Assembly: GCA_021813325.1 (NCBI GenBank)
Contig: JAKALA010000049.1
Location: 1 to 33,340, forward strand
Direction of reading: 5' to 3'
Length of the DNA stretch: 33,340 bases
Origin: a bacterium
GTDB taxonomy: Bacteria > Verrucomicrobiota > Verrucomicrobiia > Limisphaerales > UBA11358
Shown here piece after piece: positions 9,395 through 26,113 of the stretch. The translations under genes and the position numbers were made by a program. The notes under the pieces were generated by a model. That model was not told the DNA's origin. It saw only the letters and a list, made by a program, of their open reading frames with translations, and did no database searches. Position 1 is the stretch's first letter. Each line of letters begins with the position of its first letter.

Positions 9395-9819
9395 ACGAGT
9401 TGGAACAACGCTTAAACCGTCAGTCGCCGCGCCCCATACCACCCGAATGGCGCGCGGAAATCCTCTCCGCCGCGCATGAAGCACAGGCAGCCCAAGCTAA
9501 GATTCAAACGTCACCGCGCTCGCGGCTAAACAAGCTGCATGATCAAATTTCGGCTTTGTTTTGGCCGCAGCCCAAGGCGTGGGCCGGCCTGGCCGCCGCT
9601 TGGATTTTTATTGTGGCCGTCCATGTCGCCTTGAGTGACGCACCGGTAAAACCCCTCGCTAAGGTCGCGCCGTCGTCGCCCGACGTTGTTTTGGAGCTGA
9701 AGAATCAACAGCGCCTGCTGGCGGAACTGGTCGGTTCCTACGAACCCAGGACGGCTGACCGGCAAAGAAAATCACCGGCGCGACCGCGCAGCCAATGCGA
9801 GGGCTTTCAAACCGCGTAA
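9391..9819 (+). CDS. single-pass membrane protein, candidate anti-sigma partner
   Basis: 142 aa. The N-terminal half (about 50 residues) is cytoplasmic-looking, with RPIPPEWRAEILSAAHEA. One transmembrane helix follows at about residues 65-83 (WAGLAAAWIFIVAVHVAL), then a Pro-rich linker, a short helix (LELKNQQRLLAELVGSY) and a basic tail. The start overlaps the ECF sigma stop (ATGA), so the two are translationally coupled. Topology and position fit an anti-sigma factor, but no zinc-binding HxxxCxxC motif or known anti-sigma domain is present. The role is therefore inferred from context only. Confidence 0.62.
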   Translation: MNELEQRLNRQSPRPIPPEWRAEILSAAHEAQAAQAKIQTSPRSRLNKLHDQISALFWPQPKAWAGLAAAWIFIVAVHVALSDAPVKPLAKVAPSSPDVVLELKNQQRLLAELVGSYEPRTADRQRKSPARPRSQCEGFQTA

Positions 9820-9901
9820 TCAGCGCGTTGCTTTGACAAAGGTGTGAATGCCGCCATTGGGTTCAATGGCTAAATCACTTTCGCAAAAACTCATTCGAAT
9901 T

Positions 9902-11668
9902 ATGAACGATAAACCTCAAAAACCCTGGCAGGAATCCGTAAAAAGTCCGGCGAAATATTTCGGCTGGTTTGGCGTGGTGATCAGTTGCGCTTTGCTGATT
10001 TGCGGGTGCGCTCTGTTTTTGCTGACAGCGCCGTGGAAATCGGAAAACTACGGCGGCATCACGGCGATAATCTGGATCGTTCTGATCGCCGCAGAGGTGA
10101 CGCTGGCGGTTTTCGTGGCCCGGGAATTCCTCCGCAATTTCCGGCGGTTTTTCTTTGCCCTGGTTTGTCTGGCGACGTTCATAGGATTGGTTTACGCGGA
10201 GGAAGATTTGCGCGGCTGGCTCACCTGGTCCCATTTTAAACGGGATTGGGAAGCCAAAGGGATAAACTTTGACATCGCGGGCGTGGCCCCGGCCCCGGTG
10301 GCCGGGGATAAAAACTTTGCCCTCACTCCCATCGCGTATTCCGGTTATGGATTCATTTTGACCCGCGATGGCAAACGGATTCCCAACGCCCAGCGCGATA
10401 CAAATTTCGTTCAACGGTTGCGTATGCCGATTACTGTAGAACATTTTAGAGAACCAGAACACTGGCTGGGCAACTGGCAGCTCGGCCAGTTCAGCGACCT
10501 GCAGGTGATGCAGAAATATTATCGGGATGCGGCTGCCAAGACGAACGAGTTTGCCGTGCCGGCGACGCCGCAATCGCCCGGTGCCGACATTTTGCTGGCG
10601 CTCGGCAAATACGACGCCACGATCGAGGAATTGCGGGCCGCCAGCGTGTTGCCGGAGTCGCGCTTTCCACTGGAGTATGATTACGATGACCCCGGAGAAA
10701 TTTTGCTGCCGCATTTGGCCGCGCTGAAGCAGTGCAGCGAGGTATTACAGTTGCGGTGCCTGGCGGAACTGGCCAATGGTCAAAACCAGAAGGCGACGGA
10801 TGACCTGAAGTTAATGTTGCAATTGACCGGCAAGGTGAAGACGGAACCATTTTTGATTTCGCATTTGGTGCGCATTGCCATGTTGCAAATGGCCTTCCAG
10901 CCGCTCTGGGAAGGCCTGGCGCGGCACCAGTGGACGGATTCCCAGCTCGTGGCTTTGGATGGCGAACTGGCAAAAATTGATTTTGCCGAGGCTTATGTGC
11001 GGGCCATGAAAGGCGAATTGGCCATGCAGCACGGCGAAATTAATTATTTGCGACGTAATCCTGGGCGATTGCCAGACTTGTTAAATGCGCGATTTTCTAA
11101 TGACGGTTGGATCGATAACGCAATTCTTGGTCTGCTCGGGCGCGTAGTTCCTACGGGCTGGTCTTATCAAAACGAGTATCGGTCGGCCCGGCTGATGGTG
11201 AACTATTTCATTCCCGTGGCGAACGAAGAACAAGGCACCTTTTCACCTGATTTGGGCGAACAGGGATCGGTCGTGTTGATGCAAGAAACCAAGTCGCCCA
11301 GCCCTTTTAATTTCATTGAGGGCAGAATGTTACCGGCGCTTACGCGCGCTTCGTTGCGATTTGCCTTTGCCCAAGCTTCGGTAAATATGGCCCGGATCGC
11401 CTTGGCGTTGGAACATTACCGGCTGGCGCACGGAGATTATCCCGCCGCCTTGGCCAAGCTTGCGCCCGATGACATCCAGGAACTGCCGCAGGACGTGATC
11501 GGTGGCCAGCCGCTGAAATACCGTCGTGAGGCGGATGGATTGTTTACGCTTTATTCGGTGGGATGGAATAAAACCGATGATGGCGGCGTGTTCGCCTTTC
11601 GCGCGGAAAATTCCGCCCGGCCTGACTTGGAGAAAGGCGACTGGGTCTGGCGCTATCCGGCGAAGTAA
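9902..11668 (+). CDS. large membrane-anchored protein with a pseudopilin-like C-terminal segment
   Basis: 588 aa from the ATG at 9902; an in-frame ATG at 9848 preceded by AAAGGTG would add 18 residues. Three transmembrane helices lie near the N-terminus (about 20-43, 53-74 and 83-100), followed by a soluble region of about 480 residues with no motif I recognise. Near the end, ALEHYRLAHGDYPAALAKLAPD and QDVIGGQPLKYRREADGLFTLYSVGWNKTDDGG resemble the C-terminal part of type II secretion G-like pseudopilins. That pattern also appears in many uncharacterised Planctomycetes and Verrucomicrobia proteins. It lies downstream of the ECF sigma factor and its partner and may be their target or part of the signalling unit. 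Function unknown. Confidence 0.7.
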   Translation: MNDKPQKPWQESVKSPAKYFGWFGVVISCALLICGCALFLLTAPWKSENYGGITAIIWIVLIAAEVTLAVFVAREFLRNFRRFFFALVCLATFIGLVYAEEDLRGWLTWSHFKRDWEAKGINFDIAGVAPAPVAGDKNFALTPIAYSGYGFILTRDGKRIPNAQRDTNFVQRLRMPITVEHFREPEHWLGNWQLGQFSDLQVMQKYYRDAAAKTNEFAVPATPQSPGADILLALGKYDATIEELRAASVLPESRFPLEYDYDDPGEILLPHLAALKQCSEVLQLRCLAELANGQNQKATDDLKLMLQLTGKVKTEPFLISHLVRIAMLQMAFQPLWEGLARHQWTDSQLVALDGELAKIDFAEAYVRAMKGELAMQHGEINYLRRNPGRLPDLLNARFSNDGWIDNAILGLLGRVVPTGWSYQNEYRSARLMVNYFIPVANEEQGTFSPDLGEQGSVVLMQETKSPSPFNFIEGRMLPALTRASLRFAFAQASVNMARIALALEHYRLAHGDYPAALAKLAPDDIQELPQDVIGGQPLKYRREADGLFTLYSVGWNKTDDGGVFAFRAENSARPDLEKGDWVWRYPAK

Positions 11669-22905: not shown

Positions 22906-24390
22906 TTAGTTGGCGCGGCTGCCCATGAAGGCCGCGGGTTGAGCCGCTGACGCGACCGGTTTTCCATTGAAATGCCGGGGCGCGGCCATGGCCTCGCGGT
23001 CGTGAGATGGCGCGGCCGGATAACTGGCCGGTTGGTGGCCGTGGTTGAAATGGGAATCCGCGTTGCTTTGGCCCAACATGCCGACCAGCAGATCCACCAC
23101 TTCCTTGAGGGCGTTGGTTTCGGCTTGTAATTCCGTCGAGGCGCTGGCGCTTTCCTCGGCCCGGGCGGCATTGGACTGGGTGACCTGGGTCATTTGGGAA
23201 ACCGCCGTGGTGATTTGATTGATGCCCAGGCTTTGTTCGCGGCTGGCGGAGGCAATTTGAACGACCAATTCATCGACTTGATGGGTGCGCTGGGCCAGTT
23301 CCTGCAAGCTGGCGGCCACTTTGGTGTTCAGGGTCACGCCCAGTTCGCTTTTTTGGATGCTGTCCTCGATTTTTTCCGCCGTTTCCCGCGCGGCATTGGA
23401 ACAGCGTTGGGCCAGGTTGCGCACCTCGTCGGCCACCACGGCAAAGCCCATGCCCGCCTCGCCGGCCCGCGCGGCTTCCACCGCCGCATTCAGGGCGAGG
23501 ATGTTGGTTTGAAACGCGATTTCATCAATGGTCTTGATAATCTTGGCAATGTTGGCGCTGGAAGATTTGATGTCATCCATCGCCTTGGCCATGGCCGCCA
23601 TATCGGTGGTGCCGCTGTCGGCCACGCTCCGGGCGGACCCGGTCAGTTCCTTGGCGCGCTGGGCGTTCTCGGCATTGGATTTGGTGGTGCTGGCAATTTC
23701 CTCCAGGGATGCGCTGGTCTCTTCCTCCGAAGCGGCCTGCTTGCTCGCGCCGTCCGCCAGGTTCTGATTGTTGCTGGTGATGACCAGCGTCGAATTGGTC
23801 AGCTTTTGGGAACCATCAAGCAAATCGGTAATCACCTGTTTCAAGGGCCGCACCAAATTGCGGTTCATCGTCAACCACAAGGCCGCGACGAGGCAGAAAT
23901 TCACGGCCAAACACTCAATCACCTTGTTGAGCAGGGTGGCGCGCAACTGTTTACGCAGGCCTTTTTCGGTGAGGTTGATGGTGGCCATGCCGATGGGCTT
24001 GCCTTCATGATCAATCTCGCGTGTCTGGAACAGGTCGCTGGCCGCCACCGAATTGGTGCCAAATACGATTTTGCCGGCCGCGTCGCGGTCCACCGTGAGC
24101 GCGATGTCGAGATGTTGTTTGTCCTGGCCTTGCTGGATCGTGACGCTGGCCAGATCGGCATCGTTCATTTCCGCCGCCAACACGGCTTGCAGTTGGGTGT
24201 TGTCCATGCCCCACAAGGCGGCTCCGGCGCTTTGGGTCACCCGTTCCATCACTTGAATCGACTTTTTTTGGAGATCCTGATGCAAGTCACGCGACTGAAG
24301 GTAATACTCGCAAGCACTGCACAACACCATGATGCCCGTGGTGCTGATCACGCTGATCAACACGGTTCGCTGGATGGATGATAGTTTCAT
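22906..24390 (-). CDS. methyl-accepting chemotaxis protein
   Basis: 494 aa from the ATG giving [10 protein letters not shown]; an in-frame ATG at 24432 directly after GGGGCGG would add 14 residues. TM1 spans about 8-27, a periplasmic sensor about 28-156, and TM2 about 157-175. Only a short, poorly conserved HAMP-like stretch follows. The long coiled-coil signalling domain has its hairpin tip at [23 protein letters not shown] / [15 protein letters not shown] (about 288-329). The C-terminal 60 residues are low complexity (His/Pro/Ala) and lack an obvious CheR pentapeptide. It couples a periplasmic signal to CheA/CheW. A near-consensus sigma-28 promoter lies upstream and an orphan binding-protein gene follows. 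Confidence 0.94.
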
Positions 24391-24449
24391 AGATGCATTC
24401 AGGCATCCGGGCGGATGAATGTGGTTTTTCATCCGCCCCGATGTCCCAT

Positions 24450-24464
24450 GCAGGCGTTGCCTGC
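24450..24464 (-). other. hairpin in the chemoreceptor leader
   Basis: GCAGGC-GTT-GCCTGC, a perfect 6-bp stem with a 3-base loop. It sits at or just after the expected transcription start of the sigma-28-like promoter and 18 bases before the upstream alternative ATG. The role is unknown. Confidence 0.5.
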
Positions 24465-24472
24465 TAACACGG

Positions 24473-24499
24473 CTATCGGCTGAAAGGCGGACAACTTTA
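24473..24499 (-). promoter_or_regulatory. sigma-28 (FliA)-type promoter for the chemoreceptor
   Basis: On the minus strand, TAAA (24499-24496), a 15-base spacer and GCCGATAG (24480-24473). The FliA consensus is TAAA-N15-GCCGATAA, so 11 of 12 positions match with exact spacing. It lies about 80 bases upstream of the preferred receptor start. Chemoreceptors are classical late flagellar genes, which supports the call. Confidence 0.78.
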
Positions 24500-24570
24500 C
24501 ATTTTTTGGCAAACTAATGTGACGCTTCGCCGCCAGCCTCGGGACCAAACGGTTTTCACCAGCCAGGCCG

Positions 24571-24743
24571 TTGAACCCAAAAGCCGCAGTTGGAACCGCG
24601 AAACACCCCAAACACGCGAACAGGCAATGACTTCCCCAAAGACCGGCTTTCGCCGATGGGGTGAAAGCCGGATTTTTTAGAGTCCGCGCTTTTTCGCATA
24701 TTTTGCGTATTTCGCGGTTTCCATTGCGGAATCTAGGTTTATA
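24571..24743. repeat. intergenic inverted-repeat element, copy C
   Basis: A 173-bp element. The left arm starts TTGAACCC, then CGCAGTTGG and AACCGCGAAAC, ending ACACGCGAA. The right arm is the near reverse complement (TTTTGCGTATTTCGCGG, TTTCCATTGCGG, ATCTAGGTTTATA). The centre holds an additional inverted repeat around GGCTTTCGCC/GAAAGCC. It fills much of the 463-base gap between the chemoreceptor start and the porin; I see no gene in that gap. Confidence 0.74.
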
Positions 24744-24800
24744 CCGCGCCGTTCAGAGTGGCAGAAATGGAGCTGTCGAACGGAGGTGCAAGGGGTGCCG

Positions 24801-24835
24801 AATAAAAAAACCCTGCCAGCGAACTGGCAGGGTTT
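24801..24835 (-). terminator. intrinsic terminator after the porin
   Basis: A perfect 12-bp stem (24808-24819 with 24824-24835) closes a CGAA loop on the plus strand. On the minus strand it is followed by a run of T (the A-run at 24801-24810). It lies 18 bases past the porin stop. Confidence 0.93.
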
Positions 24836-24853
24836 GAGGGTTCTAAACTAAAA

Positions 24854-26113
24854 TTAGAACTTGTAGATCAAGTTGGCATAGAGACCGTAGGAGGTCGCTT
24901 TGTCAACCGAAACGCCGGTGGGCAGAATATACCGGTTGTTGCCGGTGTCGGCGCTGCTGGTAACCTTGTCGTAGCGCAGCTCCAAGCGGCTGATCACGTT
25001 GGCCCAGAGGTCATACTGCACGGTTTCGGTGAGCGAAATACCATTGTCGCCATCTTTATAAGAACTGCCGCTAAAATCTTGGGCTTCCCAGTATTCCGCG
25101 CGGGAATTGAAGCTGAGTTTATCCGTGGCCTTGATGGTGTTATACAAGGCGAGCACGAAAGGATCGGAGTGGACGGTTGTTCCACCGATAGTGCGAGTGG
25201 CCCCACCATAATTCTGCGCGTAGTCAAAGGCAGCGCCAAAGGTGACGCCAGACCACGGGCTGTTCAAAGTAGCACCAAGATAGTAGTTGATCTGGTTGCC
25301 GCCTTGGTCGCCAGTGCCCGTGGAAGGATTAGCAGCAGGGGTAGTTACGTTATTGGCAAATCCATAAACCATGCCCGCATAGAAAGTGGAGCCAGCGGCC
25401 CAACCCCAACTGCTCGGCGCCGAGAACGTGGCGGAAGCCAGCACCGTCTTGTGCCAGGCGCTGCCGCTCTGGTGGTCGAAGTTGTTGCGAGTGTTAATGC
25501 CCGCGTTGAGCGTGTTGGCAACACCGGCAGACACGGAGAACTCGTCATTGATCTTGTAGCTGCCGAGCACGCCGGTGTGCTCAGAGGGTTCAATGGCCCA
25601 GCCCCATGAACGGGTGTAATTGGGGTTGGCCCCCGCATCAAACGCTTCATAGCCCACCACGGTGTTGAACACACCGACTTTCCAGTCGATGCCATTGCCC
25701 ACCGGGGTGCGGAGCGCGACATAGGCCTGCTGAATGGCAAATTCACTGTTGTAGTTTCCGTTTAAAGATGGATTCCAGCCCACCGCGTCCGGGCCGAAGA
25801 GCAGGTCGGCCTGATAACCCGCCGCATAAGGCGTGTCATCCTGCGCTTTGGAGATGGAGAGTTTCACCACATCCAAGTTAAAACCGTTGGCTTTGCCGCT
25901 CTGGAGCGGAATATTGCCAGCGGGCGATTTGGCGATCGCATCGCCCTTGGGCCCCATCTGCCAATTCATTGAGGTGCCGACATAGCCGCTGATCACGGTG
26001 TCGGAGAGCGCGGTTTGCACCTGGCTCATTTTGGCTTCGTCTGCGCGGGCGGCGGAAGCGAGGCTCACTGCCCCGACTGCGGCCAGACCCAATGTCCATT
26101 TATTAAACTTCAT
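24854..26113 (-). CDS. outer-membrane beta-barrel porin (OmpL-like, BBP2 type)
   Basis: 419 aa. The signal peptide MKFNKWTLGLAAVGAVSLASAARA is likely cut after residue 24. The mature protein is made of alternating, Gly/Asn/aromatic-rich strands typical of a beta-barrel, with VISGYVGTSMNWQMG at the start and the aromatic C-terminus YGLYANLIYKF expected for BAM recognition. Motifs such as FAIQQAYVALRTPVGNGIDWKVGVFNTVVGYEAFDAGANPNYTRSWGW match the 'putative beta-barrel porin-2, OmpL-like' family of Verrucomicrobia and Planctomycetes. A strong GGAGGA six bases before the ATG, a structured leader and a strong terminator suggest a highly expressed single-gene unit. It probably forms a non-specific or sugar/anion pore; the substrate is unknown. 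Confidence 0.92.
   Translation of the reverse strand: MKFNKWTLGLAAVGAVSLASAARADEAKMSQVQTALSDTVISGYVGTSMNWQMGPKGDAIAKSPAGNIPLQSGKANGFNLDVVKLSISKAQDDTPYAAGYQADLLFGPDAVGWNPSLNGNYNSEFAIQQAYVALRTPVGNGIDWKVGVFNTVVGYEAFDAGANPNYTRSWGWAIEPSEHTGVLGSYKINDEFSVSAGVANTLNAGINTRNNFDHQSGSAWHKTVLASATFSAPSSWGWAAGSTFYAGMVYGFANNVTTPAANPSTGTGDQGGNQINYYLGATLNSPWSGVTFGAAFDYAQNYGGATRTIGGTTVHSDPFVLALYNTIKATDKLSFNSRAEYWEAQDFSGSSYKDGDNGISLTETVQYDLWANVISRLELRYDKVTSSADTGNNRYILPTGVSVDKATSYGLYANLIYKF

Follow-up and report, generated by a model that had tools for sequence, protein, structure and literature searches.

The chemoreceptor gene described here is very probably transcribed from a class-3 flagellar promoter that is read by the organism's own FliA (sigma-28). 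The site was found in a stretch of 33,340 nucleotides (the window) and matches the full E. coli FliA consensus at 14 of 16 positions. Its strength as a case comes from the context and not from the shorter 11/12 match noticed at the beginning.

The probable promoter site and the gene behind it

Read on the minus strand, 24499-24473 is TAAAGTTG TCCGCCTTTCA GCCGATAG, i.e. TAAA, 15 bases and GCCGATAG, and the TAAA-N15-GCCGATAG element described in an earlier note on this DNA, with 11 of 12 positions of the short FliA consensus, was recovered unchanged on rereading. The 14/16 score refers to TAAAGTTT-N11-GCCGATAA, the E. coli octamers with their 16 specified positions as printed in PMC2859248 (consulted in excerpt). 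The expected transcription start in Table 1 takes over the spacing mapped at E. coli aer, where according to the same excerpt the start lies 6 bp below the -10 octamer (PMC2859248). The site is located 40 or 82 bases ahead of the two possible start codons of the receptor gene. Since a terminator-like hairpin follows the porin gene upstream, the receptor gene is probably transcribed from its own promoter. A consensus scan of 24350-24900 found no sigma-70-type site.

Table 1. Features around the receptor promoter (window coordinates)
Feature	Position	Strand	Remarks
Sigma-28 (FliA) promoter, very probable	24473..24499	-	-35 TAAAGTTG 24499-24492, 11-bp gap, -10 GCCGATAG 24480-24473
Expected transcription start	24467	-	6 bp below the -10 octamer; inferred from E. 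coli aer spacing
Small perfect hairpin	24450..24464	-	GCAGGC-AAC-GCCTGC; 6-bp stem, 3-nt loop
Large leader hairpin	24401..24447	-	11-bp inner stem, 8-nt loop, 7 further outer pairs
Chemoreceptor (methyl-accepting chemotaxis protein)	22906..24390	-	494 aa from MKLSSIQR; 508 aa from ATG 24432
Terminator-like hairpin	24808..24835	-	18 bases past the end of the porin gene
Beta-barrel porin gene, upstream of receptor	24854-26113	-	PF07642

The encoded protein carries the MCP signalling domain PF00015 (153.7 bits, cut-off 34.6, 5.5e-45; 5.9e-45 for the longer form). Its first in-frame ATG (24432) sits within the large leader hairpin and the next one (24390) 10 bases past it. The latter is the likelier start codon because the hairpin has then already been passed and the resulting N-terminus, MKLSSIQR, resembles MKLSISQK of one relative (L056) and MKLSLKIT inside a receptor of contig C6; the evidence is weak, since among 22 relatives compared at the N-terminus only L056 starts in this way. 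In the proposed sequence of events RNA polymerase carrying FliA would bind TAAAGTTG and GCCGATAG and initiate near 24467, the first 77 nt or so of the transcript would form a structured leader, and the receptor would probably be translated from ATG 24390. It would thereby be produced along with the flagellins and some of the Che components.

FliA and the motility genes of this genome

The earlier note had named the absence of fliA and flagellar genes as the observation that would speak against it. Both are present. FliA is encoded at C6:135446-136117 and recognized by TIGR02479 (248 bits, cut-off 189.6) as well as by NF005413 (235 bits, cut-off 201). Its gene stands in a row with those of FlhA, an SRP54-type GTPase, which we take to be FlhF-like, and MotA. 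The flagellar set found comprises two flagellins, a third gene with a flagellin N-terminal domain, FliF, FliD and FliS, and the chemotaxis set comprises CheR, CheW, two CheA-like kinases, CheD and eight chemoreceptors. From these genes the cell would be expected to swim; of the motile organism announced in the note it is the genetic equipment that was observed.

The FliA regulon that the note had deduced from a single site gains candidate members, as similar elements precede fliC1 (14/16), fliC2 (12/16), cheW (13/16), cheA (13/16) and cheR (14/16). Upstream of fliD (10/16) and fliS (9/16) the scan found no sigma-28 site. Of the seven other receptors one reaches 12/16 and six score 9-11; one of these six follows cheW with its own 13/16 site. 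At the fliC1, fliC2, cheR and HDOD sites the -35 element starts with TCAAG or TTAAG instead of the TAAAG of E. coli, a hint that the -35 preference is slightly broader here.

Two further loci were recorded in the course of the scan. A 117-aa ORF on the minus strand (L119:5962-6315, contig C34), without Pfam match and one short ORF away from fliD, has its first possible start overlapped by a 15/16 sigma-28 site; its product may be a flagellar protein that has escaped recognition, or an anti-sigma factor. In one intergenic region of contig C15 (12574-12727, L023/L139) two divergent sigma-28-like sites of 13/16 are found, one 19 bp ahead of an ORF with response-regulator and SpoIIE-type phosphatase domains and the other facing an ORF with no family over cut-off.

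Rarity of the site and alternative explanations

A chance resemblance, with the receptor being read from another promoter that is invisible to a consensus scan, appears improbable to us. Two observations speak for it. The window contains one match with at most one mismatch in 12 positions (shuffle mean 0.12), and because at least one match of 11/12 turns up in 11 of 100 dinucleotide-shuffled versions of the window, this match by itself is weak and not significant. Furthermore, most other receptor genes, both here and in relatives, are without such a site. With 16 positions the picture is different: the site scores 14 and the next best anywhere in the window 11, whereas the upstream regions of 123 control genes have best scores of 8-12 (12/16 in one region), so that the site exceeds all of them. 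It also lies the above mentioned 40 or 82 bases ahead of a gene of the expected class. In the whole 4.28 Mb genome a scan with the FliA consensus yielded seven sites of at least 14/16, five of them at or beside motility genes, namely this receptor, fliC1, cheR, an HDOD-domain gene on the flagellar contig and the ORF beside fliD, which has the top score of 15/16. The other two (C34:75478 and C44:11028) are within ORFs that have no connection to motility; at fliC1 the site shares bases with the end of a 91-aa ORF, which is taken to be spurious. At this density about 0.0002 sites are expected per 310-base upstream region and about 0.002 for all eight receptors combined. Among 377,659 positions, a sample of 20 stretches plus the window in which the stretches were partly picked for motility genes or sites, six sites of at least 14/16 compare with a mean of 0.09 and a maximum of 2 for 500 permuted motifs.

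Even less probable is that the site is read by another sigma factor of the genome instead of the flagellar FliA. The FliA/WhiG model has 11 matches in this genome, FliA included, but FliA alone is over the curated cut-off, the next best reaching 115.4 bits, and the site is similar to the promoters in front of the flagellin genes here. We thus keep to a class-3 flagellar promoter read by FliA.

It is the top-scoring sites and where they lie that carry the signal, and not counts of weak matches. At 12/16 or better the same 377,659 positions contain 39 sites, which is equalled by 38 of the 500 permuted motifs and hence not exceptional, and genome-wide the motif is even rarer than its reversed control, with 48 versus 98 sites at up to 3 mismatches in 16 and 433 versus 627 at up to 2 in 12. 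An earlier comparison with the control genes had given p 1e-8, a value inflated by CheR, HDOD, the fliD-adjacent ORF, CheW and CheA, which were partly picked for their sites. Repeated with genes chosen by family only (the seven other receptors and two flagellins), these still outscore the controls (Mann-Whitney p ~1e-4); a score of 12 is attained by 3 of 9 versus 1 of 123. The receptors of C91 and C34 were scored separately from the control comparison, and the C91 receptor may sit among the 123 controls.

FliA, receptors and sigma-28 sites in relatives

FliA is over the cut-off in only 20 of 58 relatives and in 10 of 35 within the same genus, so motility is patchy among them, several of these genomes being incomplete. 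Relatives with a strong match to the receptor mostly possess FliA (11 of 12, versus 9 of 46 others; p 7e-6), with a receptor counted as present at 150 bits or more and seven relatives with weaker matches entered as absent. The single receptor-positive exception, G006, has flagellins but lacks both FliW and a FliA match over the cut-off, perhaps because of an assembly gap.

The same element is found before the flagellin genes of relatives. A site of at least 12/16 occurs in 18 of 25 loci and on the opposite strand in none of 25; these 25 were drawn from 46 matches, of which 30 were kept as loci and the 5 weakest of those omitted. In 8 of the 25 the site stands 143-147 nt before the start, and in fliC1 of this genome 142 nt, distances that imply long flagellin leaders. 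For several other loci the measurement began at an in-frame start codon further downstream, which makes the distance too large.

The receptor genes of relatives behave differently. Over 18 of 29 loci the best score is 12/16, attained once, and none reaches 13/16, which is no better than the opposite strand (p 0.25), where a score of 13 occurs once; this test covers paralogs, many of them perhaps within operons. Omitted were L104 (from the genome under study) and L088, L092-L099 and L109, all of them weak, partial or located at the edge of a contig. With the 12-position motif, receptor genes on named contigs (29 of 30 supplied loci, L049 with its ORF open at the 5' end being left out) show one mismatch in 1 of 29, two in 1 and three in 8; the controls show none below three, and three in 2 (reversed motif) or 4 (opposite strand). 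Since most receptor genes of relatives are without the site, FliA control would be a trait of particular receptor genes and not of receptor genes generally. No full-length ortholog of the receptor was found among the relatives' matches, which start at residue 106 or later with the exception of one weak match (residues 28-200).

The predicted structured leader of the receptor transcript

The small hairpin which the earlier note had placed at the transcription start is real and lies just downstream of the expected start at about 24467, but it is the smaller of two. Folded from 24467, both hairpins jointly reach -40.7 kcal/mol (z -6.5, matched by none of 200 shuffles). When the 90 nt below 11 sites were folded, with z taken from mononucleotide shuffles, this leader gave -6.3, cheW -4.6, the fliD-adjacent ORF -2.4 and the other eight -1.6 or values closer to zero. 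For the large hairpin, protection of the 5'-end and tuning of translation are the plain options.

Several candidate identities of this leader were rejected. It is not a dispersed repeat, since the genome search revealed no second copy and the other nine matches comprise 14-22 bases or are the hairpin's own other arm. Rfam gave five sub-threshold matches in 23900-24900, all to unrelated families. A CsrA-type motif was also discarded, as the leader contains three GGA triplets but none of ANGGA form.

Flagellin leaders and fliW-csrA

A conserved leader RNA is located directly before flagellin genes in this clade. In the genome under study both flagellin ORFs are on the minus strand of L119 (G000:C34:1-20000), with leaders at about 9755-9900 and 11100-11250. 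Of 27 flagellin loci, 22 combine an ANGGA hairpin at 53-64 nt ahead of the start with a second one at 12-17 nt that covers the ribosome-binding site, and between these two lies a middle CCCC/GGGG hairpin. L176 has the second ANGGA hairpin only, L180 the first only, and L158, L159 and L174 have neither. In an alignment of 24 leaders (A1, with L158, L159 and L174 omitted) 7 of 14 predicted pairs are changed on both sides, and all seven belong to hairpins one and two. The third hairpin, which covers the ribosome-binding site, is nearly invariant and hence yields no covariation evidence. Rfam has no match around the two flagellin leaders of this genome.

The genes csrA and fliW are neighbours on the contig that carries the flagellar cluster (L188/L189, G000:C6:124781-125328, minus strand). 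FliW occurs in 15 of 16 flagellin-bearing relatives versus 0 of 9 picked relatives without FliA. Control of flagellin by CsrA and FliW is known from Bacillus (PMC7652899) and Campylobacter (PMC4894983), and the B. subtilis hag leader has two CsrA sites, one over the SD sequence (PMC7652899), as far as the excerpts of these papers go. The word Verrucomicrobia is absent among the literature matches listed on this control. As in B. subtilis and Campylobacter, fliW and csrA stand side by side here, and as in the excerpted description of hag two GGA hairpins are found in the flagellin leader, one of them over the ribosome-binding site. In contrast with the known circuit there is an extra middle hairpin and no Rfam match in the two leaders, and the CsrA sites are putative.

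We lean, with some reservation, towards a joint reading in which the FliA regulon has an additional RNA-level layer. Sigma-28 flagellin transcripts would carry the conserved three-hairpin leader, whose two CsrA-type GGA hairpins would be under fliW-csrA control, and the receptor transcript's own, different and very stable leader structure would tune receptor translation.

Comparison with E. coli and biological meaning

The receptor site has the same -35/-10 octamer arrangement and 11-bp gap as FliA promoters of E. coli such as that of aer, likewise a FliA promoter on a chemoreceptor-type gene, and the matching sigma factor is encoded here too. It differs from the E. coli consensus in that both its -35 and its -10 element end in G, and from E. 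coli FliA promoters in the strongly structured leader below it. Among the literature matches listed no title deals with FliA promoters in Verrucomicrobiota.

The site is real yet an ordinary part of the gene control of a swimming cell, of an already known promoter kind, and a FliA promoter on a receptor gene is what a specialist would expect. Its presence indicates that a Verrucomicrobiota-like genome, from a genus with a patchy distribution of flagella, employs the classic FliA promoter code, and that motility genes distant from the flagellar cluster, like that of this receptor, can be spotted by sequence.
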